Under the pieces are notes generated by a model. That model saw nothing but the letters and a program-made list of their open reading frames with translations, searched no databases and was not told the origin of the DNA. A DNA stretch of 64,000 nt. Source: Ricordea florida. Lineage: Eukaryota; Cnidaria; Anthozoa; Corallimorpharia; Ricordeidae. How positions within the stretch are numbered: position 1 is the stretch's first letter; every line of letters starts with the position of its first letter. The DNA lies in NCBI GenBank assembly GCA_949710005.1, contig OX453282.1:2997001-3061000 (forward strand). The letters are read 5' to 3'. The position numbers and the translations under genes were made by a program. This document shows, one piece after another, positions 641 through 61,595 of this stretch.

Positions 641-945
641 GTCGTAACTCTCCAACGACCCTTGGGATGGAGAATGGAGAAATTTCAAACGATCAGATAA
701 ATGCCAGCACTTATATGCATGATCATGAACCTTATAGAGCCCGCCTCGGACACCTTAATTCATGGTGCGGCAGGCCGTCTGTGCCCCTTTATCTTCAAGT
801 CGATCTGCTGGCTACTTTTCATATAACCGCTATTGCCACCCAGGGAAACCATGATGAATGGAATAAATTTGTCCAGCAATACAAACTGGAATTTTCTCTT
901 GATGGATTCGAATGGGACTTTTACCAGGATGAGATGGGCGCCACG
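641..945 (+). CDS. Gene A exon: first F5/8C domain, N-terminal two thirds
   Basis: Follows acceptor TTCACGCAG. Starts in phase 1 and ends in phase 0 before a weak donor (GTTTGT). The peptide has discoidin landmarks: LGMENG near the start, then RLG, SWC and YLQVDL, then TQG, and YKLEFSLDG with a W near the end. Compared with the second F5/8C domain, the usual cysteine just before the LGMENG segment is missing. Confidence 0.82.
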
Positions 946-3900
946 GTTTGTAGAAATGAGAACAATTTCAGACGTTAAATACTATAAAAACGCAATAAAC
1001 GCCTTATCACCACTGCATTAACGAACGCTTTTCATTCCTGTAATTCACGTTCATTTAAAACGTTGCTGTGGCATCATCAATAACATAACTTATTTCAGGA
1101 GCCGATTTCTAAAAGTCCCCATCTCCCATACAAGCCCTTGGAGTCAACCCTTCCTGATGAAAAGCTATTTATAGAAATAGTTTTCGTGGAACATTTATCA
1201 CGCCCTAATGCGTAATAACCAATCAACCAATCAGAGCGCAGCTCAGTCATGCTCATTTACTTGTGTTTTTTGTGTTCTAAAGAACCTTTGACAACAATGG
1301 CGGAAAGCGTGGGGGGGGGGGGAAATGCAGTCGTCCTCGGAAACAATGTATTTTCGCGGGAAAGCCTGTTCTAAATATAATTCTTTACGGCAAGGGTTGG
1401 TTCAAGAGTGCAGCACATATGGAGGCTGCAAGTAATCGGTTCCTGCTAATTTACCACACTAACCCCGGAAACGTTAGCTTCCCATTAAATCTTACGGTGA
1501 TGTAACTTACATCACCAACCAGTTTGGTGAACCGTTTTTTGTGTTTCGATTTCCCACAGACGCAGCACCAGTTTCTTTAGAAACTCCTTTGTAATAACAA
1601 AACAAGTGGAACAGGCGCTACGTGCTAAGCGCATAATGAGTGATGAGTAATGATGATGATGATGGTGATGCTTATAATGGTGATGATGATTATAATGGTG
1701 ATAACTATGATGATGATAATAATAATAATGATGATGATAATGATGATGATGATGATGATGATGATAACAGGGTGTTCATTAGGTATCGGAGATCGGAGAA
1801 TTCTCCGGCTACTACGAAGAATTCTCCGGCCAAATTTAGATGGCCTGAGCTAGTTTTAAATTCAGACATGGAGCGCTTTCAGAATATTCTCCTGTTACTT
1901 TACACGATTCTCCTGCTACTACAATTCTTACTGAAAACCCTTTAACAATAGTAAGAATTCTTGCTTTGTTTCAGGAAATGATTCATAGCTAAATATTCTT
2001 AAAATTATCCACACCCTTAACTGCACCGAAGTGCCTCCCTTACTGTCCTTTCTTTTTCGCGATATATCGATTTCGACAACACATATTTTCTGTATTTTTA
2101 GAACTTTTCTGGGAATGTGGACGGCTACACGGTGACAAACAAATCGTTTTCTGAAAACGTTTACACCAGATATGTTCGTTTCTGGCCGACTTTCGTGTAT
2201 GCGGAACCATGTATGCGTGTTGAAATTTACGGACAAAGTCCTATTGACAGTGATGGTAAGTCAAAAAAGCATTGAAAACACGTCTAACTAGTTAAAGTCA
2301 CGTTAAAAACTTGAATAACTCGATAAAAACCTGATGAAACCTGCTTGACCTGCTACAGCCAGCTGAAAGCTAGTCTTGTAAAGGCTGTCTAAAACTATCA
2401 AAGACGAAGTATCTTTTTAAGCCATGTTGGTATTCAAAAATACAAAACTGATGGGCCATCGGAACATAGTCTCAAAACGGTCTGTAATAGTTTTAGTTCC
2501 CGTGTGACTTGTTTATTCAGCGTTGTTTTTGTTTTTGGCTTCCCCCTTGTTCTTTGTTAAGGTTTCTTCTCTCAACATTTATCATTTCATTTATTATATT
2601 ATTTTATTAACTTTTTACCATTTTCAATCTTGCGGCAGTGATGAGGCGCATAACGCAAAATAACGAAACGAGAAGTATAGCACAACACGACATTTTATGA
2701 CAAAGAACTCATCATGACATACGGCAACATGAAATGTCGTGACCTATAACGCAATATGAAATGTGGTGACCTATAACGCAACATGAAGTGTCGTGACCTA
2801 TAACGCAACATGAAATGTCGTGACCTATAACGCAACATGAAATGTCGTGACCTATAACGCAATATGAAATGTCGTGACCTATAACGCAACATGAAATGTC
2901 GTGACCTATAACGCAACATGAAATGTCGTGACCTATAACGCAACATGAAATGTCGTGACCTATAACGCAACATGAAATGTCGTGACCTATAACGCAACAT
3001 GAAGTGTCGTGACCTATAACGCAACATGAAACTTCGTGACAAACATCGGGAAGACACACTGGTCGTGACAATTACTTTGTGCACGCCTTCGTGGCACAAA
3101 CTTTCTTTGATAATATGATTTTTATGATTTATGTCACAGATCGCCCGACTTCCGTTTTGGATGTCACCGTGTACGACGTAGGACTTCATGAATTTAGCGT
3201 CAGGTGGAAACTTCCCCCTGTGTATTCTTCCGCTAAAAAAACGACGGGCTACAAAATAACATGTCAAAACGTTGCCGAAGAAAAAAATGTTACAGTAGAC
3301 GTGGGTGGCGATCATGCCAATTTCACTATGACAAACCTTAAAAGACAGACCCGCTACCATGTTGGCATATTGGCTTTTAACGACAATGGCGAAGGAAACA
3401 AAACATCCCTAGAAGTGACAACAAATACTGGTAAGTTGTTTCTCGACTACTTGGCCCAAGATATAGATAATAATAGCACCTCCGCTGTCGTAATATTCAA
3501 TCTTTTAACTAGAAATACGACTCCCGCAAAAACCTCGCGAAGCTAGTTTTTGAAGAAGTCACAATGCTTTTATATTTGATTTTATTGGTGCAAATTACAT
3601 GATCAGTATTACCGGTCAACACAGTGCTTAAAAATTGACCTTCACTTAGCTCTTTCACTGCCATTGAGATTGCACCAGAGGGAATAGAAGTAAAATTATT
3701 TATCTTGACAGGGAATACAGAGTCGATGAAGTACCACAACAATATTCACTTAACACAAATTGAAAATGATTGTAAATCTTTTGCAGGTGAAATCTTGAAG
3801 AGTTGATATGAATGCTTGTGTTTACTATGGTGTAAAAACCCGTTTTTTTTTTTTAGTTTTATTTTCTTGGTCTCTGCTGCTTTGTCTTCTTTGTTTTAAA

Positions 3901-8332: not shown

Positions 8333-8374
<42 letters not shown>

Positions 8375-11300
8375 TACTGTTATTGATATTTTTATTATTA
8401 GTGTTATATGTTTTTATGTTTTTCTTAATCTATATTGTTATGGGATGGAATGTATGTCCTTATCTGGGTAAAGGTATTGTTCCTCTACTACTACAAGCAA
8501 TACAAAAATCCTCTTGATAGGCTTTCCATCAGAGGTGGTGGTAATCAAAACAGCTCTAAAGAATGTCATTTCTTCTTTAAGGCTTAGAATCTAGTGCAGT
8601 CATTTGTCCATAAAGTTAGTGTGGAAAATCATGATTGAAAGCATTGGGCATTTCTGAAACTTGAAACAATATGTTACTATATACAGCACACTTGCAATGA
8701 ATGTATGAGAAAGATCATAAACGTTTTGGCATTACATACTTTAGTTTCTTCTTTATAGTTTTTCCAGTGTAAAAGGTGAACTGTATGTTGTGGTTGTTAT
8801 TAAATATTGGTATTTGATATCATAAAAATGAACAGTAGTAAGTAACAAAGTTAATATGTTATGTATAATTTTGCAAATTAGGGCTTAAATTAACTTTTCG
8901 TTTGTGGGAAAAGGGCAGGGGTCCTAGATAGCAATTTTATCAAGGGCTCATAGAACTGTAAGGTAAAACTGACCCATTGTAAAAAGGCTATGAAACTTGT
9001 CTGTCCCCACACACTATTACTGAAACCTTTCAATCAGAGAATACAGTACTTAGTGACACTGGGCATCTATTCTGTTGAATATGCTTAACATAACTGCTAG
9101 ATCAAGATGATTAACAATATTTTCACTGTTGCAATGATATCAGATCACATAGTTATAAATGATTGCTATCACAACTGCAACTTTCTGTGTTGGGATTTTC
9201 TTCAAAATGGAAAGGCTATCGTTTTATTACGAAAAATACCTTCATACATTCTCCTGCAATATGTTGCTCGTCTTCCGATTCCGTTTTTAGAATAATAGAA
9301 TTGTTTTCCAGAGACATCTCTAATCGTTGAAGTCGTTCCTCCTCGGTTTCCCTTCGAAGTCGTTTTGCTAAATTTAGTTCGCCAGTATATTTCGTTATGT
9401 AATCGTTCGCTCATGTCCTGTATTTCTATCAATAACACATTCAATTTCAAAATTAACTTGGTTGAATTCCTGGTCCTTTTCCCTGCTGTTTCGTTTGCCT
9501 TTTTTGGGGCGAGCAGTTGTTGTCTTTGCTGGGATGTCTGTTGTAATTCTCCATACCATCGTATCTCTGGCTGTGCTTTGAGTCGTGCTTTCCTAGTGTT
9601 GATTTTCACGGTATTCGAACTTACTCGACTACGATTTCTTGCTGCTTTTTCTTGTATATCTCGGAGATCTTCTTGCTGGGATGTACTTCCAGGACGAGTG
9701 AAATCGGTTTCCACAAAATTTACATTATTTTCAAAAAGGCATCACCGAATACGCAATGGCGGAAATTCAGCAATTTGTCAAATGCGCTACTGTGGCCTGG
9801 TAACCACGCCTGCGAACGGACACCTTTAAAATATATATATATATATACATATATAAAAACTCTCGGCTCGATTTACTCGGGCTTGCGAGCCACGTGGTCT
9901 GACCGAAGGAGACACGATTAGTAACCTCGCTTCGCGAGGAATTATACTAAAACAATTATTCGCCTCAGGCTCAGTTAATATTGGCGAATATTTACCTCGC
10001 CTTCGGCTCGGTAAATATTCGCCAATATTAACTTCGCCTTCGGCGAATAATTGTTAAATATAAATATATATATATAAATATGTATATATATATACATATA
10101 TAAAAACTCTCGGCTCGATTTACTCGGGCTTGCGAGCCACGTGGTCTGACCGGAAGCGACACGATTAGTAACCTCGCTACGCTCGGCCTTCGGCCTCGCT
10201 TCGCGAGGAACAAAAACAGTAACTGCTGTAACCTATGTAATTCTTGCAGACTACCTCTTATACACCCATTGTTTTATTATACAATTTATACATGCAACAT
10301 ATTTTAATTGCATATACATTTTTAATATTATTCACCATTTTTCTTTTTTTGTGTCCTCAATTAGTTGTAAAAACGTAATACACTGACACATTAATAAAGC
10401 TCTTACTTTACTTACTTACTTAATTCCTTGCTGAATTCGCACAACTTTAAACGCATGCACTTTTGCCAGCAAAAAAAAAGAAAAAAGAAAAAGAAACAGG
10501 CTGGAATGGGATTCGAACCGGCGACCTCAAGAATGCCGGTCCGAGGCTCTATGAGGGTCTCCCAGGGGGGGTCCTTGTTCCCTTGTTCCCTTCCAAAATT
10601 GCCCTATGTTACCATGTTCCCACACATTTTAGTAAATTGTTCCCCTTTGTAATTTTTTAGAATTTTGTTCCCCTGTTCCCAAAAATTGGCTAATGTTCCC
10701 TTGTTCCCTTCGATATTTTGCCAATGTTCCCTTGTTCCCCAAAACCCCTGGGAGACCCTCCTCTATCAGTTGGGCTAAACCAGCCAATCACCTGTTCCCA
10801 AAGAGGACAACAGTGCATTTCAAGTGTAGGATTTGTTTCATAGAACGGAGTGGTTGATATACTATAAAATTGAAATAAAATTTGGTGTTTGACATCCTTG
10901 AGTCGATAGGTCTCTCCGTGATTTCGGAAACCATCATTTCTTTTCCTCAAAATGTCTCTGTATTGCAGGAAACTACAAATTGCTTAGTTCTGGGAGAGAA
11001 AGGGTCTCATATTTTGATGAGCATATTTTCCCAATAAAAACGAGGGTTGTTAAAACTTATCTCTTCTTCTAACACTTTTGCTGAAGGATTTTTGCTTCTT
11101 TCTTCATACTCAGCCTGTCTAAAAGGATGGACTCGATTTCAATGGAGATGTTATCTGCTCGTCCACAAAACTCCCAAAACATGGTCCGACGCTAGCATTA
11201 ATTGCCAAAATCTCAATTCACATCTGGTTTCAATCCAAAGCTTGGAAGAAGACCAGTTTCTCACGTCCCAAGTAACGTCCTTGGGCGGGGCCAGTGCGTT

Positions 11301-14300: not shown

Positions 14301-17300
14301 TAGATTTTTTCATTTATTATGTTCTCGAAGATATTAGCCTCTTCAGGGCTACTCTGAAATTCGAGTTTTGAATAAAGTTTATGCATGCATGCATGCATGC
14401 AGGTACGTACGTACGTATGTCTGTCTGTCTGTCTGTCTGTATGTGTGTATGTAGACGAGAGAGTCAGTTTTGCCACCGTACGATTGAGGTGCTGACGTTA
14501 CGAGCGTTACCCCTCTCTTAAAGCGATCGGTCAAAGGAGAACTTAACAATCGGAGTCTATCCCTAACCTTTGTACATCTTGTTTCAGGTCCGACGATACC
14601 ACCCTTAATTCAAAATGCAGTGAATTCCAGTTCAACCTCCCTAATGTTTGATCTCTACCCCCCACGGGAATACTATGCCGCGCACGGTATCCTGGGATAC
14701 AAGGTGCATTACTGGAAACGAAGTGAGTCGGCAGTAAACGCGAGGGTAATGCAACTTCCTCCGGGTAACGTGACAGCAAATGCAACAGGACTCGAAGAGT
14801 ACGTGGAGTATTGTCTGTCAGCCCTAGTCTTCACAAGTCACGGAGATGGAAAACTGAGCGCTTGTGTTACCGCCTGGACCGCTGAAGATGGTAATCCATG
14901 AAATTTCCATTTCTAATTTCACTATATGGTATTTTACTATGGCACTGTTTAAAATGAGAGTAGTTCTAAATTGTAGATGAAACCATATGCTATCATTCTT
15001 TGGAAAGCTACTGAGCAGTACTGTACTGTGGTACTGTTTGTTTTACTGTACAGTGTGGTTCTAACTTTTTCATCTGTGGATCAAACCATGCAAAGTAACC
15101 ATTCTTTGTAAAGCTACTGAACAGTACTGTACTGTGGTACTGTTTGTTTTACTGTACAGTGTGGTTCTAACTTTTTCATCTGTGGATCAAACCATGCAGT
15201 GTCACCATTCTTTAAAATTTGCAATCATCTCTTTATTTTCCAGTTCCCGATGCCGCGCCCTCGAACGTTGTGGTCAGCACCTCTAGCCCTACCAGCGTTA
15301 CGGTTACCTGGCAACAACTTCCCGCTGATTTGCTCAATGGCAACCTACTTGGATATCGTATTGTTCTCCAAAAGTCAACTGTTCATCGGCAAAGGCGCAG
15401 TTTACCAGAAAACGTATTCACTGTAAATGAGACTACTTTATCCTGGACTTTGGAAGGACTGGAAATACACACCAACTACTGCGTTCAAGTTTTAGGTTTT
15501 ACCAGGATTGGCGATGGAGTTGCCAGTAACTGGACTTGCGTTTTGACAGAGGAAGACGGTACGATACCGCTAGTAGATTGTGTACTCCTCTTAAGCCAAA
15601 AATTATTATTAGTGTAGATGTCACCCTCTTTGACCAAAAATTATCATTATAATAATAATGATAATTATTATAGAATTAATTATAATAATTATGATTAAAG
15701 ACTTTATTTATACAGAGTAGCACATAATAGCCATAGGCTAATAAACTTGTAGCCCTGATTAAATTGATATAATATTCAAAGGTCGACCATACCACCGGGG
15801 TCTATGTCCTCTACTCTTTTCGAACAGTGTTGTGGGATCTTTAACGTTCCACAAGAACAGTGCTGTGAGACGCGGCCTTCGGGTTTTCGTCCTTACCCGA
15901 GATGAATAGAATGTCTAACCATTTGAAGGTGTCATAACAGCACATTCTCCTCAGTTATTTTAAGACCTTGAGTGTTGGACCGGCCGGGGTTTGAACTCAC
16001 GACTTCCCGCTCGACAGGCCGGCGCTCTACCAACTGAGCTAACCGAGCGGCGGTTATAATGTTATAATGTTATAAAGCCATGTTCAATCAAACGTTATCA
16101 ATCTCGGTATTCTAAAAGTTGTTTGAGTAGCTCTTTTGCCTATACATTCTGATAATACTTTGGAGGATGTAAAGTTTAGGATTTGTTTTTTTAGCTTCTT
16201 CGCAAGATTCAGTTTAATCCGCAAGCTATTACGGAACGCTTTTCCCTAGTTTAATTAACTTCTTGTTCATACGTTGTTATAGATGGAAGAGCTCTTTATT
16301 CCCTACAAAGATTGCATACAACCGATAATCATCTCATTAGCTCTGGCGGACGTTATCCCCCTTTTCACCTTACTACGGTACTAATAACTTTTCCACTCAC
16401 GGGCTCCATTGACAAATAAACCCTGTACTGCATACAACTTGAGAAGGAGTAATAACATAATCGTCCCGCGTTTTAACTCGCAGTTCCTAAAAAACTCAAT
16501 TAGCTATAGAGGCGCTATTCTTTGGAACGCTGTCTCGAGTCATTTTACAGACCAGTTTACTGTTTTTTATCACAAAGTGAAGGACTCTTATTTTAAGGAA
16601 CTTGATTTTAGTGCACAGTCGGTCCAGTCGCTGCCCAGGCACTACCAAGATTTTAAATGCTTTTAACTATAGTCAGTTTACTTAGAGGTAACTAATGTAA
16701 ATTCATTTTATTTTTTGGTTAAAATCTTACTGGGTATTTTTAGAGTTTCAATTGTAGTTGTATTTTTCAAGTGATGTTATTCTTATTTTTATACAGTTTT
16801 ATCCATTTGTAATCATTTTTTACACGACCCCACAAGCTTTGAGCTTTAAACCATATCGTGTTTAAATAAAGGATATATATGTATGTATGTATTGTATTAC
16901 GCGACGTTTTTGCTTGTAAAACTGTAAACGATTTGAGCCCAGGAGTCTCAGTGGTTCTTTGTTGAGTTTAATCGTTTCTACTTGTTTTCATCTCTTTTTC
17001 CTTAGCACCTAGCGCACCTCCGTCAAATATCACTGCGCACAGCGCAGGTCCCTTTTCAATCATGGTGACTTGGGAACCAGTACCACTAATCGACAGAAAT
17101 GGTTTGGTAATTGGATACAAAGTCATGTATGCAACCGACGCCGGTTCCCATCGAAGTTCAGCAACTACAGTTAATTCATCAACAACTTCGTACAAAGTCA
17201 CAGGTCTTTTTGCTTACACGAGCTACTGCATCCAAATGGTGGCATACACCAGTGCGGGTGATGGACCCGTCAGCGCATGCGTGATAGCAAGAACCAGAGA

Positions 17301-17827
17301 AGGGGGTAAGAAATTTAGTCAGTGTCTAGACAACTGTGCACCTACCCCTCCCCCAACCTAACATTAACTTTTTAACTTATTTATTTTTAACTTATTTATT
17401 CATATTTGGTTTGCGTTTCTTGAGTTTTGTATCGCATTGTCATAGTTTCTCGCTTAGTAATCACCGATTGTTTATCATTGGTTAATTTTTTCATTTTCAT
17501 GTGTTACCACGCCCTGTTATGTAATCATCTTTGTTATATTATGTCATCTTTTATACTGTAAACCTATTTAAGGACATTGTAATTTCTTATTCACTTGCAC
17601 TGCAACTGATGAAGGTCATTGACCGAAACGTCTATTTTTATTAAATTTTTAAACTTTTTTTAGATATTTTACTGTATATATATATATATATTTTTTTTTT
17701 TTCGCTCGAAGTTGTCCGTCCTCGTTTTCCACAATTGCCTACAAATTTCATTACTCGAGGTTTGGACTACGAATCCTTTTGGATCCTTCTGGCGTGTGGC
17801 ATCCCTGTTGGCTCGAAGCATCATAAC

Positions 17828-17867
<40 letters not shown>

Positions 17868-20800
17868 GTTATATATACTCAAGTATATAATACTTGAGCC
17901 CAAAACAATACCACGCACCTCTTTGAGACTTTTTATATCATTGTAACTTTAACCGGCCCCAGCTCTTTTGTTTTCAGGGTTAGAGGCATCATTTGCGTAG
18001 TTTGGTCTACATGTCTTAGAATGTTTTGTTGTCTTAAATAATGCAAAAGGTTGCTAGAGATGTACAACACCTCCATCTGTTAAGTAATTTTAGTTTTGAC
18101 TGAAAGAGAATTAAGAAGGAATCCACGACAGTTGATGTCCAAAAAGAGTGTGTCCTTTAGTATGATCCGGATCAGGAATTCTGATGCAGTGTTAGACGAA
18201 TCATGATGCAAAGGAGGAACCGATGAATCCTTGTCCAAAGTGGATTCAACGGTTCCCTTAATGCGCGCCATAAGCTGAGTCATCTTGGATCACATATCCT
18301 GATCCGGATCATACTCAAGGGAATGTACACCACGAGACACCATCTTGCCTGCATCCGTTTCCCTCTCCAATTCTTATTATAAAAAAAAGAAAACAAGAAG
18401 AACGAATTCTTCCATTATTCCATTACTAACTTGAAGCTCCACAAAGACGTTTACTGAACACCAATTTTGAGTATATTTGATGGTATAGCACTACGAAGCC
18501 GCAGTCCAGGAGATCTTTCCCTGTGAAAAGATATTGAAAAAAAAAACACATGAAGGCGAACAGTAGAGAGGAAGAGAAGGGAACTATAGCTAGGAATGTT
18601 GACATGGTTCCGAGGGGAATGAGGAGTGGACGCCATCTTGATTTCACAATTTGACGCGATATATTGTTTTCTCTGTTCCACCCCAGTCCCATCTGCGGCT
18701 CCTGGTAATATATTCGTTGACAGCAACGACCTTAAGACTGTCGATTTGCGCTGGAGTCCGATCCCTTCCGACAAGGTACAGGGAGAGTTAGTGGGATATG
18801 CTGTACTCATCCAAGAGTTGGATGTCCAGTTCCTTGTTTCTGCCTGTTACTTGTCACTCCAGTTTCAAAAGGAGAATTTGACCGAAGATTCTTGCATTCG
18901 GATAGCTGCTACGACGAGAGCGGGATTTGGGAATTTCACGGATTGCATATCGATAACCATCCGTGAGTACTGTATTGTGGTACTGTTTGTTTTACTATAC
19001 AGTGTGGTTCTAACGTTTTCATCTTAGTGGATCAAACCATACCGTGTGACCATTTCTTTGTAAAGCTACTGAACAGCACTGTACTATACAGCATGGTTCT
19101 AACCTTTTTATCTCTGGATCAAACCAAGCAATATAGTCATTCTATGGAAAGCTATTGAACAGTACTGTACTGTTGTACTGTTTGTTTAACTGTGTACTGT
19201 GAGTCTAACGTTTTCATTTGTGGATCAAACCACGCAGCGTAATAAATCTTTGTAAAGCTACTGAACAGTGCTGTATAGTGGACCTCTCAGTCTTTTACTA
19301 TACACTGTGACCTTAAAATTTTTGATTTCATGTGACCATCCTCTGCAATATTACAGAAGAGTACTGTGCTATGGTTTTGTTGGTGTTTTATGGAGTGCGG
19401 TATATTTATGATTGACCACAAGTACTATTCACTAGGTACATGTGAGACAGCGGTTTTTGTCATTTCCATACAACATCATGTTAGTCAAAATTCTGTGCAT
19501 TCGGGTGAGATTTTACTGGTGAGGACACTTCCTGGTTTCTTTCATGATGATCTTGATTCTTACAGCAAAAAGAAAAATGAAATTCAATTGCCACCACTTC
19601 TCCTGTTCTTCTTTCAGCTCTTTTGACCTTCACTACAAAACAGGTTTCAGCCAGCTTGTTTAGAGGAATATCTTCAGTAAAAGTCGCGTGGAACTTTGAA
19701 GATGAGGAGCAACAGACTGGAAGGGTGATTGGCTACTTCATCAAGTTTCAACCAACGGAAACCGGCGGAGAGCCGGTGCCAGACGACCAAGCTCATCCAG
19801 AATTCATGGCAGTGTGCAGTACGCTTTCAGAGATTATTCTCAGAAATCTTACGTCTTACACGAAGTATAAAATACAAGTAGCACCGCTCACTCTTGATGG
19901 TAAATTAAACTACAGCGACCCAGTTTATGGAGGTAACATTCTAACGCTGGGACGGGGTTGTTTGAAGCAGGGTTAAGGTAACCCAGGGCAAGTGCGAAAT
20001 TTAAATGCAGATATGAGAGCTTAAAAAGCACATTACTATAATTCTTTTTGAATAAAATTTGGTTGTTTAAAGCAGGGTTAAGGTAACCCAGGGCAAGTGC
20101 GAAAATTTAATACAGATATGCACACTCACTATAATTCTCTTTGAATAAAATTTGATGATTGTATGCTCTGACAAAAATAGAGAAAGTTATCGGAGAAAAT
20201 GGTTTTTAACAAGAGGAAAAGAAAACCGGGTTAAAATTTAACCCTGGCTTAGCGCTAATCGGCCTTAAAACAACCGGCTCCTGATGTAAAACAATTTTAC
20301 TGATTATCTTAGAGAAAACGCTGCTTGGAACTGTCTGTTAGGCCAATAGTAATGTGAAGATGCCCATCACATAACATCAAACTTACGTTTTCACCATTGA
20401 AGGGGAAGCGGCTTTTCTAATGTCACAGTATTCAACTTCAACTGCGCAGGAATACACTTTTCAGGATAACCGCTGCCGTATGGCATACGTACGCAAGGTT
20501 TGCTTGGCATTTCCGTCGCTTGGTAACATAACGATATGAAAACCTGTAAAACCTGCTTTGAAAACGTACCATGTTTGCACTATGGACCATGAATTGAAAT
20601 GGCGATGTAGAATTGAGCCTCGTGAAACAGTTTAAAAGCGAATACGTTTGGTCGAAAAATGCGAGCTTCAACGAGCCTTGCCCTCTGTTCTTTGGCGAAG
20701 TTGAAAGGTTCACGTCCGGTCAAGATCTTTCCTTTTTTAGCTCGTGGATCTCGTGTATTCACAAGGTATTGGGATGGTGGGTCAGAAATGTCACGGAAAA

Positions 20801-21124
20801 CGTGTAACAAAAGAAACATCGAAGTCAATAGTAACCTTGGATTTTCCATGTAATTGGTGATGCTCTTTTACTTTCTTAACTCGTGAGTCTCGTGGATTCA
20901 CGAGATATTGCCGGGGATGGTGGGTCAGAAATTTCATGGATAACGTATAACAAAAGAAACAGCAGAGCCAATAGTAACCTTGGATTTCCCACGTAGTTAA
21001 TTATCGTCTTGAATCTTCGTTCTGTCGTTTCGTTCTAGCTTATCACAATCCTCGTACTTACAATCCAAATTGTGTTGCATTAAACGCATGCCACTTGTGT
21101 GCTTAAGTACATACCATACAATTC

Positions 21125-21166
<42 letters not shown>

Positions 21167-24100
21167 TTTCTTAATATTGGTAACTCTTACTACTCTCTAA
21201 CTCATTCTCATCATTTTACCGTGTATAAAGTTTATGATGATATGATGATGGCCCATGGGGGCTCTTGAGGCCGGCTAGAAGATCACGTCACCCATCCCGG
21301 TCTGAGTCACTGGCCCTCCAGTTTGGGGGTTGGGCGTGCCGCTATTCCCCGCAGCCCATAAAAATACTTGATTACGGAAACCGAAAAGACTAGGATTGGT
21401 AACTTTTAAGTTAAAACATTTTATCCACGAGCTCACTATCGGGTACCTTTGATTTTAATAGCATTTCATTAACATTGAACACGACAAGGTCAAATCTTCA
21501 TCTTTTGCTTCGCTTCAATTGAAACTGTTGAAATAATTGCAGCTATTTCAAATGTTGCCTTGGCAAAGTTGCCAAGAGTGGCAGTCGGTCAATCAGAGGA
21601 ATACGGAAAAACTGTCCCAGTGACAGATTTTACGCAATAAAAAACGTTGCAATAAAAAGTGTCTTTAAACAGACTCCACACAATCATATCGTCTATAGCT
21701 CACACTCTGTTTTTAGCAGATAAAGTCCTATTGGAACTGCGATTCTACCGACGCTAAAGTTTCTTGTTTACGATTTTCTTTTGTTACCAGAAACTTGTCG
21801 TTGCACCAAATCTTTAAGGGTGTCATTGATACCAAGTCATCTAGATTCGAGCTCGAAAATTTCTGGGAGTCTGACCCCACTGATAACCTCCTTGATAACA
21901 GACACATGTGGTTATTGCGAAGAACATATCGCGACAGAGGTACAAGGAGTAAGCTCTGACAACGTTCTAGAAGAGGAGATCATCTTTCCCATGTCACGAA
22001 TCCAAGCCTTCGGGAACACCGCATACAGCAAGTTCATACCAGTTATATCAGTACCCGGGATGGTGCTAATTCAGAAGAAGGGAGTTGACAAAGGTTTTCT
22101 AACTAAAGTCATGGCAACATCTGTTTTGGACTCCTGGCCTGCTTTCTTCATCACTCTGATATTTGCAATATTGGCGGGAATAATTATCTGGTTCTTAGTA
22201 AGTATTTTACAAAGAGTTTGCTTTCACTACATGGTTTGATCCACAGATGAAAACGTTAGAACCACACTGTATAGTAAAACAAACAGTACCACTGTACAGT
22301 ACTGTTCAGTAGCTTTACAAAGAATAGTCACACTGTATAGTAAAACAAACAGTACCACAGTACAGTACTGTTCACTAGCTTTGTAAAGAATGGTCACACT
22401 GCATGGTTTGATTCACAGATGAAAACGTTAGAACCACACTGTATAATAAAACAAACAGTACAACAGTACAGTACTGTTCAGTAGCTTTACATAGAATGGT
22501 CACACTGCATGGTTTGATCAACAGACGAAAACGTTAGAACCACACTGTATAATAAAACAAACAGTACCACTGTACAGTACTGTTCAGTACCTTTACAAAG
22601 AATAGTCACACTGTATAGTAAAACAAACATTACCACAGTACAGTACTGTTCACTAGCTTTGTAAAGAATGGTCATACTGCATGGTTTGATCCACAGATGA
22701 AAACGTTAGAACCACACTGTATAACAAAACAAACAGTATCACTGTACAGTACTGTTCAGTAGCTTTTCAAAGAATAGTCACACTGTATAGCAAAACAAAC
22801 ATTACCACAGTACAGTACTGTTCACTAGCTTTGTAAAGAATGGTCACACTGCATGGTTTGATCCACAGATGAAAAAGTTAGAACCACACTGTATAGTAAA
22901 ACAAACAGTACCACAGTACAGTACTGTTCACTAGCTTTGTAAAGAATGGTCACACTGCATGGTTTGATCCACAGATGAAAAAGTAAGAAGACACTGTACA
23001 GTAAAGCAAAAAATACCACAGTACAGTACTGTTCAGTAGCTCTCCAAGGAATGGTCACACTGTATCAGTGGTTTGAGACAACCAGAACCACACTTAGTTA
23101 ATTTGTCAACACATACAAATGCAGCATTGCCCTTATCCTTGTTTTCTTCATTTTGCAGGATACTGGTCCAAACCAGGAGCAGTTTCCACGAAGATATATC
23201 AACGGTGCTGGCGAAGGTTTTTGGTGGGCTTTCATTACCATGACAACAGTTGGGTAAGTACAGTATTACCTTAAAGGAGTCTGTCCTGGAGAATTTAATA
23301 ACTTTTGGACAGTGCTGTTCCAAAAATGCGACTATACAGAGATAAAGACGGAAAGGAGTCCGTCGACATTTTTCTACTGTCAATTCCGCTGCCGTTAGCA
23401 GTATGCTATTTTCGGCTTAAAAAGAATTATTCCCGTCCTCATACGAAACGTAACAAGAATTTGATTTATTAATCATTGCCGTACACGGCAGTACTCTGCT
23501 GGCCATCGCTGTCGTTCGCCGTTAGCAGTTTATTGTTATGGTGACGCTTAACTTTCTTTTATAAAACCAGGAGCCTCGTAGGGAAGAGGATCGTTTCTGG
23601 TAATAAACCTCCTATTTAAAGACACATTGATACAAGAGAACCGAAGCATACTTAACACTGAACTTAATACTCAAATTAAACGAAACTTAACACTCGAAAG
23701 TTAACTTGACAAACGTAATTTAGATTCATTGCACTGTACACTTCATGTTAACAGATATGGTGATCGCTGTCCCCAGTCCGATCGAGGCAAGGTGTTTGGG
23801 ATGGCCTGGTCTCTAATCGGCCTCATTCTGTTCGGGATCTTCATGGGTTATCTGACAGCAGTTCTCACTGTCACTGTTATTAACATGGAGGATGCGCGTT
23901 ACAACCCTCAGAACAAAAAGGTAAAGTCAACTGCCAAGATTTTCTGAGTGACGGGAGCCAATCAGAACGCGCTAAAAGAAACTACTTACAAATTTGGTAA
24001 ATACTGTTAACAGATGTTCGTTTCATTCCCAGGTCGCGGTGGTCTTGGACTCGGCTGAACACCAGATGGCGGTTACTAAGTTCAGGAACAAGGTTCAAAT

Positions 24101-26258
24101 TGGTAGGGACCTTATTGGTAGGACCTTATTGGTAGGCACAACTGAATATGAGTCGAGGTGGCCTTCACATAACTGGCACCTCGCTGTCAACGCAAATTAT
24201 TCATGCTTTTAATTTGAAATTTCCGGGCTAGACAGACTTGCGCCCGCGAGTCTCCTATAGCTCAGTGGTAGAGCGTCCGAACTAGTAATTGGAAGGTCGT
24301 AGATTCGACTTCTATTGGATTTTTTTTTCTGAGTTTGCCTGTGACAGTGCCAAAAAGTACATCCTTCACACGATTAAAAGGAAACTTAAAGAAATTACCT
24401 CCAAGTACACAAAGCAATGACGTCATCATGAATGTATAACGTCACTTGTTACGTTTTCAGGTCTTAAATTCACGGATATGAGCACCATGATCCAGGCCCT
24501 TAGAGAGGGAAACGTGAGCTCCGCCCTGCTAGAGATGTACGTACCAGTGACAAGAAAAGACCTGTTTAATGAATCATGGTTTGAAATCTCTGATCTGTTA
24601 TTCGGCACGATAGAACATGGCGTCCTGCTGCAGGGGAACGGTGTAAAAATGGCCAAAGATCTCGAAAACTTGATCAAGAGTAACAACGTACAGTCTGCGT
24701 ATCTACAGCAGGGAGGGGAGAGAGTGGAGACCGAGGTACAGAACCAGCTATAAGCTAAGAGAGCATAAGGGACTGAGAGGGACACCCCCAGTCCGGCCCT
24801 TCGATATGAAACTTCAGGAAAGTTATTTTGGCATATAATTCATGGTAGGCCACCATATAGTCAGTTTACAGGGGTATACAAGGGTTTACAATGATATACC
24901 TTTGTAAACCCTTGTATACCCCTGTAAACTCTATATTTGATGACTATATAGTGGCCTACCATGAATTACATGCCGTTATTTTGGGACATTTTTTTTAAGT
25001 TTTCATATCCCGACCGACGCCCCTATTGTCCCTCTATGTCCTTTATGTTCTCTTGCTATCAGCGCAATTTTCAAAGAGTAGAGCCACACCAGGCCATTAC
25101 GGCGGGAACTGTAGCACGAAACATCGCGTCGATTTGCAGATTGTTTGAATCTTGGAATCACGGCAGTTATTTGTAGAACTAACCACGCAATTTTCCACTC
25201 CCATAGGTACGATCCATATTATGCTTACATGAATATAAACGCCACTCGATTGTTTTTTCTTCAGAAACTTCACTGAACAAACACAAGAGAAAATGAGGAA
25301 AGAGAACATAACTCCGTCTGATATGATAAGAATATATTTTTAGCGCGGAACCTATTTATATCTAGTTCCATGGCTGCGCGGTTTCCCCATGAAGCATTGA
25401 AATTACAGCCACGTGATGAGAAGAACATCAGCTATTGGTCAGTTAAAATAGTTTCCTGATCTGAAAATAGATTCTGTCCCCTTACCATAGTAAGAGAACC
25501 CAGTATGGAAGATACGTTCTCTTACCTCATTTTCTCTTGACAAACATTTATAAAATTTGTACCGCCTCCCTCCTTCAGCTAATAACCAGTCTATAAAATT
25601 CTATTTTCCACAGGAGGAGCAAATATCAATGGTGTTTTTTGAGCCCAGCAGTCCCTACTTTTTCAACACAATGGTTGTAGGAGTTTCTTTGCTCCTATTG
25701 GCTCTGATCTGCGGGTTGATTTACCAGGCCTCCTGTCTTAAACGAGCCAAAAACGAAGTCGACGGTAGGTTGCGCTCTAACTGGCGAACAATTCTCGAGA
25801 CCTCAGACGTACTCTTAACAAATTAACCACAAGTTCTTATAAAATCATATTTAAGCCATATTATAAAACAGAAACAAAAAGCATTTGGTTTCCATATAGC
25901 AGGGTTAGCAATTCCCAATCTAATTCAATAAAAAATGCTCTTTCACTTGCGCTTCTGAGTCAGGATATTGGGTATTTGACCATATGCCACTGACGTTAAA
26001 TGGTCTATGCTCATGCGTCAGCCGACGTCATGCGTGGTTGCAATGTAAAATCATCGTATTGCGATTCATTTGTTTGATGTTCCTTTACTGTTGACAGATG
26101 TACATTCGCAAGGAACATGCAAACGTGGAGTTTTGAAGAAAGAAGTCACTCTTGCAGTGGAAGAATTCCACGCTAACTTTTCTAAGAGTTACAAGAGGAT
26201 ACGAACGAAGCACATGGCAGAGCTTATGAAGTACGAGGCAGAAAGAAAACGAATTTGA
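641..26258 (+). CDS. Gene A: F5/8C-FN3-C-type lectin-FN3 ectodomain fused to a GluR0-like potassium channel (5' partial)
   Basis: Eighteen exons join in one frame (1475 codons plus stop; all splice phases agree): 641-945, 2102-2255, 3140-3430, 11114-11494, 12003-12313, 13555-13708, 14588-14890, 15244-15558, 17006-17305, 18687-18962, 19618-19932, 21791-22197, 23159-23253, 23755-23920, 24033-24102, 24461-24735, 25614-25764, 26098-26258. Domain order by residue: F5/8C 1-152, FN3 153-249, C-type lectin 250-376, F5/8C 377-531, five FN3 532-1034, S1-like half 1035-1148, TM1 about 1150-1170, pore loop with TVGYGD about 1198-1204, TM2 about 1213-1238, S2-like half 1257-1385, TM3 about 1387-1410, basic cytosolic tail. 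Known: TVGYGD is the potassium filter, and S1-M1-P-M3-S2-M4 is the iGluR/GluR0 plan. Inferred: a surface potassium channel gated by a ligand or contact. The first exon starts in phase 1, so signal peptide and start codon lie upstream. Confidence 0.85.
1645..1767 (+). repeat. GAT/AAT trinucleotide microsatellite
   Basis: Runs of TGATGATGA and AATAATAAT inside the 946-2101 intron of gene A. The apparent proteins here are microsatellite translations. Confidence 0.9.
2102..2255 (+). CDS. Gene A exon: first F5/8C domain, C-terminal third
   Basis: 154 bp, phase 0 in and phase 1 out. Encodes NVDGYTV, then YTRYVRFWP and the closing MRVEIYG strand typical of discoidin domains. Acceptor TATTTTTAG, donor GTAAGT. 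The 154-bp length and the phases equal those of the matching exon of the second F5/8C domain (13555-13708). Confidence 0.85.
2715..3036 (+). repeat. 27-bp minisatellite, 11 full units plus one degenerate
   Basis: Unit TGACCTATAACGCAACATGA followed by AATGTCG; eleven units at 2740-3036 differ by single bases. It ends about 100 bp before the FN3 exon at 3140. Because 27 is a multiple of three, long artificial reading frames arise on the minus strand. Confidence 0.95.
3140..3430 (+). CDS. Gene A exon: FN3 domain 1
   Basis: 291 bp, phase 1 at both ends. Starts RPTSVLDVTV and keeps FN3 landmarks: the core tryptophan in VRWKLPP, the GYKI strand, and the tyrosine-corner region YHVGILAFNDNGEG. It lies just after a 27-bp minisatellite in the preceding intron. 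Donor GTAAGT. Confidence 0.87.
3510..6257 (+). repeat. Direct duplication of 2.7 kb, copy 1
   Basis: Shares long stretches at roughly 90% identity with 7161-9833, starting CTAGAAATACGACTCCCGCA and ending GGACACCTTTAAAATAT. It holds a short frame at 4088-4366 (KIPLLSKEMPYQQK) that is also broken in copy 2, and a charged minus-strand frame near the right end. Likely an old mobile element; the family was not recognised. Confidence 0.85.
6257..6577 (-). mobile_element. Composite foldback element with a MAAS-type first exon
   Basis: A near-perfect hairpin (6257-6372; AACAATTATTCGCCGAAGGC and its inverse) is joined to about 200 bp holding, on the minus strand, ATGGCTGCCAG (MAASRSRAFDEI) at 6470 and an ATTGG box near 6520. 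A minus-strand relative lies at 30172-30440. Confidence 0.65.
6578..7160 (+). mobile_element. Crypton-like recombinase fragment, copy 1 (broken)
   Basis: ATG at 6691 begins MAASSRFVNVSDEEISEIKS and runs to a donor at about 6809 (AAAG|GTATGT). An acceptor at about 6930 leads to EWF, then a stop, then SKFYLSARRQDGSHYKKTSL and SIRAALDRP. This is the N-terminal pattern of DUF3504/Crypton-type tyrosine recombinases. In-frame stops and the missing catalytic part make it nonfunctional. An almost identical inverted copy lies at 54412-54996. Confidence 0.68.
7161..9833 (+). repeat. Direct duplication of 2.7 kb, copy 2
   Basis: Same order as copy 1. Its left end joins directly to the Crypton-like fragment at 6578-7160. 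The minus-strand frame at 9202-9714 is longer than in copy 1 and rich in R, K, E and Q (coiled-coil-like). Another frame of this stretch reads KRLRRETEEERLQRLEMSLE, so a frameshift is likely. Confidence 0.85.
8317..8372 (+). repeat. ATT microsatellite
   Basis: TATTATTATT run in copy 2 of the 2.7 kb duplication; copy 1 has a shorter one at 4646-4690. Confidence 0.9.
9842..10209 (+). repeat. Direct repeat split by a foldback MITE
   Basis: A stretch of about 100 bp (ATATATAAAAACTCTCGGCT ... CGCGAGGA) occurs at 9842-9940 and again at 10089-10209. Between them lies the hairpin 9943-10060 of the AACAATTATTCGCC family. Confidence 0.8.
10499..10785 (-). repeat. tRNA-like sequence interrupted by a MITE
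   Basis: On the minus strand GGCTGGTTTAGCCCAACTGA joins, after removal of the insert, to a complete tRNA-like body ending GGTTCGAATCCCATTCCAGC; acceptor ends GGCTGG and CCAGCC pair. Probably tRNA-derived (SINE or pseudogene). The anticodon loop is irregular. Confidence 0.6.
10553..10760 (+). mobile_element. MITE of 208 bp with perfect 16-bp inverted ends
   Basis: Ends GAGGGTCTCCCAGGGG and CCCCTGGGAGACCCTC are exact inverses, and CTCTAT flanks both sides (10547-10552, 10761-10766) as a 6-bp target duplication. The interior is rich in TTGTTCCC. It lies inside the tRNA-like sequence. Confidence 0.88.
11114..11494 (+). CDS. Gene A exon: C-type lectin-like domain
   Basis: 381 bp, phase 1 at both ends; a complete long-form CTLD in one exon. 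It opens with CLKGWTRF, has CYLL, then W..A...C before HLVSIQS, followed by FIGLEG and YTNWAPP, and closes with C...KPYICE. The usual calcium and sugar motifs (EPN or QPD, and WND) are replaced (APPS; WLN), so calcium-dependent sugar binding is doubtful. Confidence 0.88.
11495..12002 (+). other. Gene A intron without recognised features
   Basis: 508 bp between the lectin exon and the second F5/8C domain. Ordinary AT-rich sequence; no repeat or gene seen. Confidence 0.6.
12003..12313 (+). CDS. Gene A exon: second F5/8C domain, N-terminal part
   Basis: 311 bp, phase 1 in and phase 0 out. Encodes GDCREISVGMETG, then AARLGNHIGWCDAA, YIQVDLG, ASQGV and YAVLLSLNG with W. It keeps the opening cysteine that the first copy lacks. 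Donor GTGAGG. Confidence 0.87.
12314..13314 (+). other. Gene A intron, left part, no recognised features
   Basis: About 1 kb of the intron that splits the second F5/8C domain. A short inverted match around 12395-12470 (CTGTCAAATTTGGAAATAA and its partner) suggests a small foldback element, but the ends are unclear. Confidence 0.45.
13315..13541 (+). mobile_element. Composite foldback element with a short first exon
   Basis: CTGATTGG box near 13352, then ATGGCCTCTCG at 13378 (MASRFGFLRGNDFN), then a hairpin (TATTCACCTC ... ATTCACCTCC) ending GGTGAACAATTGTTAAAT. Same plan as the elements at 6257, 30172, 41735 and 54297. Confidence 0.62.
13555..13708 (+). CDS. Gene A exon: second F5/8C domain, C-terminal part
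   Basis: 154 bp, phase 0 in and phase 1 out. Encodes FTGNRNYYGVV, then FARFVRISP and CMRLEIYGV. A composite foldback element ends in AACAATTGTTAAATGG only about 14 bp before the acceptor CAG, so the 3' splice region may have been rebuilt by the insertion. Confidence 0.87.
13727..13858 (+). mobile_element. Foldback MITE, ACCTACCCCTCCCC family, copy 1
   Basis: Left arm GTAAGTATCTGG ... CCTACCCCTCCCCTAAC and right arm GGTTAGGGGAGGGATAGGTG ... GTACTTAC form a long hairpin. Further copies at 17320, 27351, 30627 and 63291. Confidence 0.82.
13870..14378 (+). pseudogene. LINE reverse-transcriptase C-terminus and 3' tail
   Basis: RVQNTLITIYTECLNYDSF, a stop, then TYGLNSFRYFASKTWNSLP and FRRLVKEISF: the standard end of many LINE polyproteins. 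The tail ends AATAAAGTTT and runs into the ATGC microsatellite. Confidence 0.78.
14381..14449 (+). repeat. Tetranucleotide microsatellite (GCAT, GTAC, CTGT)
   Basis: ATGC, GTAC and CTGT units follow each other directly after the LINE tail. Confidence 0.95.
14588..14890 (+). CDS. Gene A exon: FN3 domain 2
   Basis: 303 bp, phase 1 at both ends. Encodes GPTIPPLIQNAV, GYKVHYWKR and YCLSALVFTSHGDGKLS followed by CVTAWTAED. The core tryptophan position reads LMFDLYPP, so it is a phenylalanine variant. The two cysteines (EYCLS and SACVT) recur in the next FN3 units and may form a family-specific disulfide. Confidence 0.84.
14975..15213 (+). repeat. 106-bp repeat, array 1
   Basis: Two units (AGCTACTGAGCAGTACTGTA; GTTTTACTGTACAGTGTGG; ATCTGTGGATCAAACCATGC) starting about 85 bp after the FN3 exon that ends at 14890. 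Confidence 0.9.
15244..15558 (+). CDS. Gene A exon: FN3 domain 3
   Basis: 315 bp, phase 1 at both ends. Encodes VPDAAPSNVVVS, then VTVTWQQLP, LLGYRIVLQ, and NYCVQVLGFTRIGDG with WTCVLTEED. Clear FN3 with the core W and the paired cysteines. The preceding intron contains the 106-bp repeat. Donor GTACGA is weak. Confidence 0.88.
15700..16053 (-). repeat. tRNA-derived SINE, family 1
   Basis: Minus-strand A box (GCTCAGTTGGTAGAGCGCC) and B box (GAGTTCAAACC) at 15977-16053, then a body shared with the plus-strand copy at 58456-58860 (GTTCTTGTGG, GGGATCTTTAACGTTCC on the other strand). Confidence 0.85.
16300..16893 (+). pseudogene. LINE reverse-transcriptase C-terminus and 3' tail
   Basis: 16409-16666 encodes AYNLRRSNNIIVPRFNSQFL and SISYRGAILWNAVSSHF, a typical LINE end. 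The 3' tail contains ACCCCACAAGCTTTGAGC and AATAAAGG followed by TATG units. Confidence 0.82.
17006..17305 (+). CDS. Gene A exon: FN3 domain 4
   Basis: 300 bp, phase 1 at both ends. Encodes APSAPPSNITAHS, IMVTWEPVP, IGYKVMYATD, and SYCIQMVAYTSAGDGPVSAC; a textbook FN3 unit. Donor GTAAGA. Confidence 0.9.
17320..17375 (+). mobile_element. Foldback MITE, ACCTACCCCTCCCC family, half copy
   Basis: Only the left arm (CAACTGTGCACCTACCCCTC) is present, 15 bp after the FN3 exon ending at 17305. Confidence 0.65.
17831..17865 (+). repeat. TA microsatellite
   Basis: About 17 TA units; a shorter TA run and T run lie at 17674-17701. Confidence 0.95.
18687..18962 (+). CDS. Gene A exon: FN3 domain 5 (divergent)
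   Basis: 276 bp, phase 1 at both ends. Starts VPSAAPGNIFVDS, has the W in VDLRWSPIP and GYAVLIQ, and ends CIRIAATTRAGFGNFTDC. The middle is shortened and hydrophobic (LDVQFLVSACYLSLQF) compared with its neighbours. The donor GTGAGT sits exactly where the 106-bp repeat begins. Confidence 0.83.
18963..19345 (+). repeat. 106-bp repeat, array 2
   Basis: About three diverged units. The first begins at the exon end itself: the donor GTGAGTACTGTATTGTGG is part of the repeat. Confidence 0.85.
19618..19932 (+). CDS. Gene A exon: FN3 domain 6
   Basis: 315 bp, phase 1 at both ends. Encodes KVAWNFEDEE, VIGYFIKFQP, then ILRNLTSYTKYKIQVAPLT. It lacks the APP start of the other FN3 units but has the W, GY and Y..Y.I.V core. 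It is the last extracellular module before the channel part. Confidence 0.8.
19948..20281 (+). mobile_element. MITE, GGGCCGGTTGTTTGAAG family, copy 1
   Basis: Left end GGGACGGGGTTGTTTGAAGC and right end GCCTTAAAACAACCGGCTCC are imperfect inverses. An internal stretch (AGCAGGGTTAAGGTAACCCA) is duplicated. Relative at 52782-53023. Confidence 0.72.
20737..21000 (+). repeat. Imperfect tandem duplication of about 130 bp
   Basis: GTATAACAAAAGAAAC and CCAATAGTAACCTTGGATTT (or close variants) occur in both halves. Confidence 0.75.
21127..21167 (+). repeat. ATA microsatellite
   Basis: About 13 AAT units. Confidence 0.95.
21791..22197 (+). CDS. Gene A exon: S1-like half and TM1
   Basis: 407 bp, phase 1 in and phase 0 out. 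About 115 extracellular residues with cysteines (TCRC; DTCGYC) end in a segment like the end of an iGluR S1 lobe (KFIPVISVPGMVLIQKK). Then LDSWPAFF leads into one hydrophobic helix (ITLIFAILAGIIIWFL). The S1 part is shorter than in classical iGluRs. The assignment rests on order and topology, not on strong identity. Confidence 0.72.
22207..23066 (-). repeat. 106-bp repeat, array 3 (largest)
   Basis: Units begin CATGGTTTGATCCACAGATG at 22231, 22402, 22508, 22680, 22852 and 22958, giving periods of 106 and 172 bp (106 plus a 66-bp partial unit). The array starts about 10 bp after the TM1 exon ending at 22197 and is inverted relative to arrays 1 and 2. Confidence 0.95.
23159..23253 (+). CDS. Gene A exon: pore helix and first part of the selectivity filter
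   Basis: 95 bp, phase 0 in and phase 2 out. Encodes RRYINGAGEGFWWAFITMTTVG: the pore-helix pattern of potassium channels (FWWAFITMTTVG). The last glycine codon is split GG|A across the intron, so the signature TVGYGD is completed only after splicing. Donor GTAAGT. Confidence 0.9.
23755..23920 (+). CDS. Gene A exon: filter end (YGD) and TM2
   Basis: 166 bp. Completes the filter as GYGDRCPQSD, then GKVFGMAWSLIGLILFGIFM and GYLTAVLTVTVI, a pore-lining helix. The YLTAVLT stretch resembles the iGluR gate motif YTANLAA, which is a suggestion only. Ends in phase 0. Confidence 0.9.
24033..24102 (+). CDS. Gene A exon: start of the S2-like half
   Basis: 70 bp, phase 0 in and phase 1 out. Encodes VAVVLDSAEHQMAVTKFRNK, like the start of an S2 lobe of a periplasmic-binding-type domain. 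The donor stands at the first of three near-repeats of GGTAGGGACCTTATT, so alternative donors 15 and 29 bp downstream are possible. Confidence 0.72.
24246..24330 (+). repeat. tRNA-like element with anticodon loop CTAGTAA
   Basis: CTATAGCTCAGTGGTAGAGC and GTAGATTCGACTTC are A- and B-box matches; the acceptor arms pair at about 6 of 7 positions. The anticodon stem is poor, so a SINE or tRNA pseudogene is likelier than a working tRNA. A minus-strand relative lies at 45690-45870. Confidence 0.55.
24461..24735 (+). CDS. Gene A exon: S2-like half
   Basis: 275 bp, phase 1 in and phase 0 out. Encodes DMSTMIQALREGNVSSALLEM, the pattern 'index residues, ALREG, acidic' seen in S2 lobes, and later EHGVLLQGNGVKMAKDLENLI. 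Two N-glycosylation sequons (NVS, NES) support an extracellular side. Reading past the donor would add only VQNQL and a stop. Confidence 0.78.
24830..24974 (+). mobile_element. Hairpin MITE, TTCATGGTAGGCC family, copy 1
   Basis: Nearly the whole element folds back: GCATATAATTCATGGTAGGC to GCCTACCATGAATTACATGC, with GGGTATACAAGGGTTTACAA in the arm. Second copy 31181-31327. Confidence 0.88.
25284..25539 (+). mobile_element. MITE with CAAGAGAAAATGAGG ends, copy 1
   Basis: 15-bp inverted ends; flanked by ACAAACA on both sides (25277-25283 and 25540-25546), a perfect 7-bp target duplication. An inverted copy lies at 62850-63112. Confidence 0.88.
25614..25764 (+). CDS. Gene A exon: TM3 (M4-like)
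   Basis: 151 bp, phase 0 in and phase 1 out. EEQISMVFFEPSSPYFF leads into a strong helix (VVGVSLLLLALICGLIY) followed by basic residues (CLKRAKNE), which fits a cytosolic C-terminus. It matches the position of iGluR M4. Confidence 0.85.
26098..26258 (+). CDS. Gene A last exon: basic cytosolic tail
   Basis: 161 bp ending in TGA at 26256-26258. About 52 residues rich in K, R and E (CKRGVLKKEV; SYKRIRTKHMAEL), likely helical. No known domain recognised. Confidence 0.78.
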
Positions 26259-26291: not shown

Positions 26292-26516
26292 TTCAGTAGC
26301 TATGGTTTGATCTAGAGCTGAAAAGGCAGAACCACAATTTATAGTAAACCAAACAGTACCACAGTACAAAACTGTTCAGTAGCTTTACAAAGAATGGTCA
26401 CACTGCATGGTTTGATCCACAGATGAAAACGTTAGAACCACACTGTATAGTACAACAAACAGTACCACAGTACAGTACTGTTCAGTAGCTTTACAAAGAA
26501 TGGTCACACTGCATGT
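26292..26516 (-). repeat. 106-bp repeat, array 4
   Basis: Two units starting about 35 bp after the gene A stop codon, within or next to its 3' UTR. Confidence 0.88.
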
Positions 26517-61536: not shown

Positions 61537-61595
61537 CTCGAGCTGATAAGGAAAGCAGTAACAAAGTTAATAACAGTAACGGCAACATGATCAAT

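Follow-up and report, generated by a model that had tools for sequence, protein, structure and literature searches.

The stretch of DNA analysed here, hereafter the window, comprises 64,000 nucleotides of the Ricordea florida genome and lies on a 29-Mb contig of the 538 Mb (48 contigs) that were searched. On its plus strand, 18 exons between positions 641 and 26258 join into one open frame of 1,475 amino acid residues, which contains no internal stops and is closed by a stop codon at 26256-26258. The borders are GT-AG and the phases are consistent at all 18 exons when re-derived from the genomic DNA, in agreement with an earlier note on this DNA that had claimed one frame with compatible splice phases. 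The domain order of the model is F5/8C, FN3, CTLD, F5/8C, five FN3, S1, TM1, TVGYGD, TM2, S2, TM3, and a tail. This is the order that the earlier note had given, and it is borne out by a domain search of the joined protein, in which Pfam identified F5/8C (6.7e-38, two stretches), fn3 (1.2e-53, with five stretches passing alone), Lectin_C (4e-16), and, as the best match in the channel part, Ion_trans_2 (6.1e-15). Six exons are marked as FN3 by a home-made profile that was itself built from these same exons. The exons are as follows, each with the evidence for its assignment.

641..945, plus strand, exon 1 of the model, first part of F5/8C domain 1 (phase-1 acceptor, Pfam); not the first exon of the gene
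2102..2255, plus strand, exon 2, second part of F5/8C domain 1 (splice borders, frame, Pfam)
3140..3430, plus strand, exon 3, FN3 (splice borders, frame, FN3 profile)
11114..11494, plus strand, exon 4, C-type lectin domain (Lectin_C, 4e-16)
12003..12313, plus strand, exon 5, first part of F5/8C domain 2 (Pfam; matches C16:124957-125280 of the C16 paralog at 2.5e-15)
13555..13708, plus strand, exon 6, second part of F5/8C domain 2 (splice borders, Pfam)
14588..14890, plus strand, exon 7, FN3 (splice borders, FN3 profile)
15244..15558, plus strand, exon 8, FN3 (splice borders, FN3 profile)
17006..17305, plus strand, exon 9, FN3 (splice borders, Pfam, FN3 profile)
18687..18962, plus strand, exon 10, FN3 (splice borders, FN3 profile)
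19618..19932, plus strand, exon 11, channel-adjacent FN3 (FN3 profile; inside the clade of channel-adjacent FN3s)
21791..22197, plus strand, exon 12, S1 lobe in a short form, and TM1 (phase-1 acceptor, S1 alignment, S1-TM1 tree)
23159..23253, plus strand, exon 13, pore helix and filter as far as TVG (frame, pore comparison)
23755..23920, plus strand, exon 14, YGD of the filter, and TM2 (frame, pore comparison)
24033..24102, plus strand, exon 15, start of S2 (frame; 3' end uncertain, repeated GTAGG donors)
24461..24735, plus strand, exon 16, S2 lobe (with two paralogs, aligns to the bacterial GluR0-type S2)
25614..25764, plus strand, exon 17, TM3, in the place of M4 in animal receptors (hydrophobic segment)
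26098..26258, plus strand, exon 18, basic tail and stop codon (frame)

The 3' end of exon 15 is uncertain by a few codons because alternative donors occur in a short repeat at 24099-24136. The modelled protein contains three hydrophobic segments (residues 1152-1170, 1226-1244, and 1391-1409), the third of which follows S2 and has a matching TM3 in the C16 paralog. It also has 25 N-glycosylation motifs and 31 cysteines, the majority of them before TM1. Two N-glycosylation motifs lie in S2, and the C-terminal tail is basic. Within the 1,151 modelled residues before TM1, no hydrophobic segment rises above the threshold, i.e., Kv-type voltage-sensor segments are absent, and Pfam found no bilobed amino-terminal domain of animal iGluRs in the modelled part, which carries F5/8C, fn3, and Lectin_C instead. 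The filter, TMTTVGYGD, spans exons 13 and 14 behind an intact pore helix, and all three membrane segments are kept.

Position 641 is an exon start rather than the start of the gene, and the module series extends to the left of the window on the same strand in the outward order CTLD, TSP1, FN3, FN3, weak F5/8C, and TSP1.

L044:8629-8988, same strand as the gene, CTLD
L044:7630-7863, same strand as the gene, TSP1
L044:6397-6693 and 5150-5437, same strand as the gene, two FN3
L044:3398-3769 (7.5e-7) and 4592-4774 (0.31), same strand as the gene, weak F5/8C
L044:2629-3036, same strand as the gene, outer TSP1

Pfam named no family in either of the weak F5/8C frames, and neither the first exon nor the signal peptide was located in the DNA examined left of 641. 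Further features were noted on this side and in the introns. Two frames (L044:122-478 and 1259-1516) appear PA14-like by eye, the joined pair giving only Pfam Carb_bind at 0.027, and two long open frames at L046:361-2139 are perhaps a mobile element. Intron 2 contains a 27-base tandem repeat of 11.7 copies (2724-3040), and in intron 3 one element seems by eye to be present as two long copies that resemble each other (approximately 3500-6250 and 7150-9830). Similar repeat units of 66 to 106 bases occur both in introns and outside the gene (22225-23062, 14994-15213, 26302-26515, and 39581-39771).

The adhesive and channel parts had been taken for one protein, and this view is sustained by the open frame, the module order of the C16 paralog, the splice pattern of S1, and the FN3 clade described below. 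The alternative is a pair of neighbouring genes, of which an adhesion protein would end at exon 11 and a channel would begin at exon 12. Read-through of exon 11 reaches a stop at 19974 with no membrane anchor, so that a short secreted isoform ending there is possible, and this stop, the existence of stand-alone genes in the same channel family, and the fact that the join of exons 11 and 12 is read from genomic DNA alone all speak for two genes. The junction (19932-21791), on the other hand, offers the channel no beginning of its own in the genomic DNA. It contains 10 ATG-led frames of at least 15 codons, only one of which has a phase-1 donor, this one not being signal-like, and the frame entering exon 12 comprises 22 codons and no Met; a separate channel start within 19933-21790 was therefore rejected. 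Exon 12, which has no usable start, opens in the same way as the S1 exons at 15 of the 15 loci examined, in all of which the first S1 codon is split behind an AG acceptor, although this test amounts to an A before the first codon because the loci were picked for an E/D-T/K-C start. A candidate phase-1 GT donor follows the neighbouring FN3 in 12 of 13 cases (L051 has none), with 6 of these 12 FN3s also having candidates in other phases. At nine stand-alone loci of the family (L033 and L058-L065), the Met and a signal-like hydrophobic stretch open the S1 exon itself, as judged by eye. Since FN3 and channel moreover seem to be co-inherited in the trees and the C16 paralog has nearly the same order, we consider two genes very improbable.

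The C16 paralog, on the plus strand, reads CTLD, F5/8C, FN3, CTLD, F5/8C, FN3, FN3, FN3, a gap of approximately 10 kb, FN3, S1-TM1, P, TM2, S2, and TM3. An additional CTLD, F5/8C, and FN3 precede this order, and a TSP1-like frame is seen by eye among the FN3s. It follows that the last F5/8C is succeeded by at least four FN3s in this paralog and by five in the window gene; in the 10 kb (L039) between the third FN3 of the run and the channel-adjacent FN3, no convincing module match was found. The S1-TM1 exon of the paralog is 44% identical to that of the window gene.

In separate genome-wide searches with the two parts of the protein, 7 of the 14 non-self clusters matching the ectodomain lie no more than 30 kb upstream, on the same strand, of a channel relative, for which the chance is approximately 3e-17 under the assumption of uniform, independent places. 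The channel side of this comparison used 49 of 93 matches (left out were 7 of the window gene, 24 judged Kv-like, and 13 further exons of listed loci), and the ectodomain side used 36 of 47 (11 of the window gene left out). An eighth cluster, C2:10124205, has an S1 at 8.3 kb downstream, as seen in a wider later search. Seven of the 14 clusters had no channel place within 30 kb in the comparison, which counts against a strict linkage of these modules to channels. The first-look candidates were scored in part (95 of 169 in the channel search, 44 of 691 in the ectodomain search, and 150 of 167 in the wider family search), so the cluster counts and the family counts given below are lower bounds. 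Two groups of ectodomain matches lack a channel place in the 30 kb downstream of them: 13 F5/8C and FN3 matches at C11:20138953-20600163 (plus strand), one of these seven clusters, and six FN3 matches at C11:2654104-2773442 (minus strand), approximately 220 to 340 kb left of the window.

Directly upstream of S1, an FN3 is found in 13 of the 14 testable loci of the headed branch, the window included. Ten further S1 loci were extracted with approximately 2.6 kb of upstream DNA, four of them having been picked with knowledge of a nearby FN3 match; at nine of them between one and three FN3 exons are present, and the tenth locus is masked. These nine, the window, C16 plus, C16 minus, and C11 minus make up the 13, and at C2:6384639 no FN3 was found within approximately 2.6 kb upstream. 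The count omits L048, whose upstream DNA is masked, and L027, L029, L031, and L038, which have too little upstream DNA; most members of a further set of loci were picked for long open frames. In the FN3 tree, the bootstrap of which is not quite settled, the 13 channel-adjacent FN3s form one clade (98/98) that includes one other FN3, of L052. Channel adjacency requires two changes on this tree, and none of 500 shuffles scored as low. The channel-adjacent FN3 of the window gene groups with those of L013, L015, and L019 (91/66), and in the S1-TM1 tree the channels closest to that of the window gene are likewise L013 and L015 (99/97). Chance joining was rejected on the strength of the paralog order, the linkage of ectodomain and channel, the split S1 codons, and the FN3 clade. 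The adhesion-channel fusion, known from genomic DNA alone, is thus very likely real.

The class of the channel required revision. The potassium filter and the fusion to the ectodomain stand as they had been described, as do the single gene and its domain order, but the comparisons point to a GluR0-type ionotropic glutamate receptor, in which S1 and S2 flank the pore, rather than to a Kv channel. A Kv- or 2TM-type potassium channel in the normal orientation with an added adhesion head would fit two observations, namely that Ion_trans_2 gives the best Pfam match and that, in PDB sequence searches with the channel, the 60 best matches listed, Kv channels among them, are potassium channels or unrelated proteins with a K+ filter. 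Pfam Lig_chan, on the other hand, is matched by all eight family pores (1.4e-5 to 2.2e-10), five of which exceed the cut-off, and the pore of the window gene falls just under it (3.2e-7, 30.7 bits versus 30.8); of eight Kv control pores from the same genome, two match, at about 0.1. The pore tree separates a family clade (100/100) from a Kv clade (100/100) and resolves only weakly whether the family branches off from within the bacterial pores. An extracellular head before TM1, in combination with only three membrane segments, would also imply a pore orientation opposite to that of Kv and 2TM channels.

The nearest prokaryotic relatives likewise have the receptor layout. When prokaryotic genomes were scanned with the TM1-P-TM2 of one paralog and the best 80 of 524 relatives were taken, 76 of these 80 were GluR0-like in layout, as judged from how far the longest frame extends before and after the filter, and the S1 of 59 of the 76 carries an R..DF-like motif. 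Among the remaining four, two are seen by eye to have an S1 of this kind, and in the other two the 5' side is short. SBP_bac_3, Lig_chan, and Ion_trans_2 were found together in all four prokaryotic relatives scanned, and the best PDB matches of the one relative searched include the GluR0-type chains 2pyy and 1iit. A scan of IMG/VR with the channel returned three pattern matches, with no relative among them.

The two lobes were aligned separately, and the values given for these alignments are pairwise E-values without database correction. Taken together with that of two paralogs, the S2 of the window gene aligns with the bacterial S2 at 9.3e-6 (local) and 2.6e-4 (global), versus 0.09 and 0.2 (local) for reversed decoys. 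For S1, 25 family rows align with the bacterial S1 at 4.4e-6 (local) and 1.1e-5 (global), versus 0.005 and 0.006 (local) for reversed decoys; the stand-alone branch by itself gives 9.1e-6 and the headed branch by itself 0.0065. Against animal S1 stretches, the stand-alone set gives 2.7e-5 (decoys, 0.015 or worse), all 25 rows give 0.034 by hhalign, and the headed branch alone gives 0.5 by hhalign, with reversed decoys scoring better. Any S1 kinship of the headed branch with glutamate receptors would thus run through the stand-alone branch. Pfam scans of sets of S1 sequences returned no ligand-binding domain, and PDB profile searches with S1 gave no informative match. Inspection by eye did not reveal the S1 arginine that binds the ligand carboxylate in the A5 rows, which are uncertainly aligned there; in L060, an R lies near its place.

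A Kv-type identity was rejected on the basis of the Lig_chan matches of the pores, the GluR0-like prokaryotic relatives, and the S2 alignment, and we regard a Kv or 2TM channel with an added head as having very little chance of being correct. The window gene is probably a GluR0-type ionotropic receptor with a very long adhesion head where animal receptors carry their amino-terminal domain. For the anatomy and kinship of the receptor taken by themselves, the sequence comparisons give still firmer grounds, and we hold these to be highly probable.

The family is large in this genome. The wider family search gave 56 clusters (126 of 148 matches were used, and 22 were left out as Kv-like by judgement), with at least 27 loci, counting the window gene, that have S1, P, and TM2 in order and at least 43 that have at least two of these; some of these loci may be fragments, and single module labels may be wrong because the modules were assigned by query position. 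The 5' side could be judged at 23 loci, 13 of which carry FN3, nine stand alone, and one shows neither arrangement. No FN3 was found in the limited upstream DNA examined at the nine stand-alone loci. Because some loci carry FN3 and nine have a signal-like S1 exon with its own Met, the family appears to consist of headed and stand-alone forms. In the S1-TM1 tree, one change separates the two, none of 500 shuffles scored as low, and the support of the dividing branch is 44/0. PF10613 has 41 matches in this genome, and inspection by eye places all of them at loci other than those of the family.

Four subunits would assemble, with the head and lobes facing the outside and, in the manner of GluR0, the pore loop entering from the cytoplasm. 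This inverted orientation is suggested by the head before TM1, the three membrane segments, the two N-glycosylation motifs of S2, and the basic tail. The canonical filter predicts potassium selectivity, and opening would pass potassium and thus hyperpolarise or shunt the cell. It is also conceivable that the protein is a non-conducting receptor or adhesion protein whose channel part serves as a membrane anchor or as a silent partner in heteromers. The shortness of S1 in the window gene and in two of its relatives would suit such a role, but the intact TMTTVGYGD filter and pore helix and the retention of three membrane segments argue for a conducting channel, and we judge a non-conducting protein improbable.

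Across most of the family, the gate would open when a small ligand closes the S1/S2 clamshell. A different S1 is found in the window gene, L013, and L015: it is 111 to 116 residues long, versus 127 to 137 in the other 13 aligned rows, and the PY motif near its start is not kept. In these three, the lobe may therefore no longer be closed by a small ligand, and gating may have passed to the head, which would drive or hold the gate. Binding to, or pulling on, the CTLD, F5/8C, and FN3 modules would then move the lobes and the gate. Such head-driven gating in the lineage of the window gene is the weakest step of the proposal, and we put it forward tentatively, as a rather unlikely reading. A slightly better, though still doubtful, case can be made for a short S1 that continues to bind a small ligand, with the head serving just to anchor or position the receptor. 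In favour of this reading, both S1 and S2 are retained, and the three closest copies share a conserved S2; S1 is nevertheless approximately 15 to 25 residues shorter than in most relatives, and the ligand arginine is missing to the eye from the uncertainly aligned A5 rows. The wider proposal is of a large family of potassium receptors in animals that are gated by contact and descend from an ancient GluR0-type channel, one branch having transferred the role of the clamshell to a diversified adhesion head; it is a speculative extension and marginally less probable than head-driven gating itself. If it were true, there would be many sensors converting touch among cells, matrix, microbes, or symbionts into hyperpolarisation.

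Several known systems resemble parts of this receptor. Adhesion GPCRs, receptor phosphatases, and polycystin-1 also carry a long adhesion ectodomain on a signalling membrane part, and the membrane part is different. Animal iGluRs (AMPA, kainate, NMDA, and epsilon) share the order S1-M1-P-M2-S2-M4 and would be oriented alike, but they differ from the window protein in the filter and in having a bilobed amino-terminal domain. GluR0 of Synechocystis (Slr1257) and the bacterial GluR0-type receptors share S1-TM1-P-TM2-S2 and the potassium filter. Among the best 80 of 524, the prokaryotic relatives nearest to a paralog's pore are GluR0-like proteins; the bacterial S2 aligns with that of the window gene, and the bacterial S1 aligns with that of the family as a whole. 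Compared with GluR0, the window protein adds a third membrane segment, introns, and animal adhesion modules, and its S1 has diverged. Passages of PMC12332018 and PMC13099474 describe GluR0 as having two membrane segments and no head, and the latter reports an orientation opposite to that of KcsA. AvGluR1 of the rotifer Adineta vaga, which according to passages of PMC12332018 and PMC12226733 has a potassium-filter signature and selects K+ over Na+, is, like the window gene, eukaryotic with such a signature; those passages mention no adhesion head. In the corresponding part of PMC12332018, potassium-filter glutamate receptors are the bacterial form and one rotifer example.

The sections considered of PMC12226733, PMC12332018, PMC6307864, PMC10236652, and PMC13099474 make no mention of such a channel bearing a head of fibronectin, discoidin, or lectin type, and the word fibronectin is absent from the main texts of PMC6307864, PMC12226733, and PMC10236652. 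Our searches of the open PMC literature brought up no description of the combination; it may be known or annotated in subscription papers or animal protein databases. With at least 27 loci that have S1, P, and TM2 in order, the bacterial-type receptor would exist in animals as a living and expanded family, in which it could be tested whether such a gate can respond to an adhesion module instead of a small ligand. The gene itself hints at a way of turning contact into an electrical signal.

The remainder of the window contains further features. At approximately 28947-33000 (plus strand), a Met-led frame followed by ankyrin-like frames, as judged by eye, seems to be the start of the next gene. 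Frames at 59097-61566 (minus strand) resemble, by eye, an apple/PAN and EGF- or fibrinogen-like protein. Two tRNA-Thr lie in a 255-base tandem repeat and a third lies nearby (47507-48003 and 44810-44882), with the anticodon ggt in all of them.
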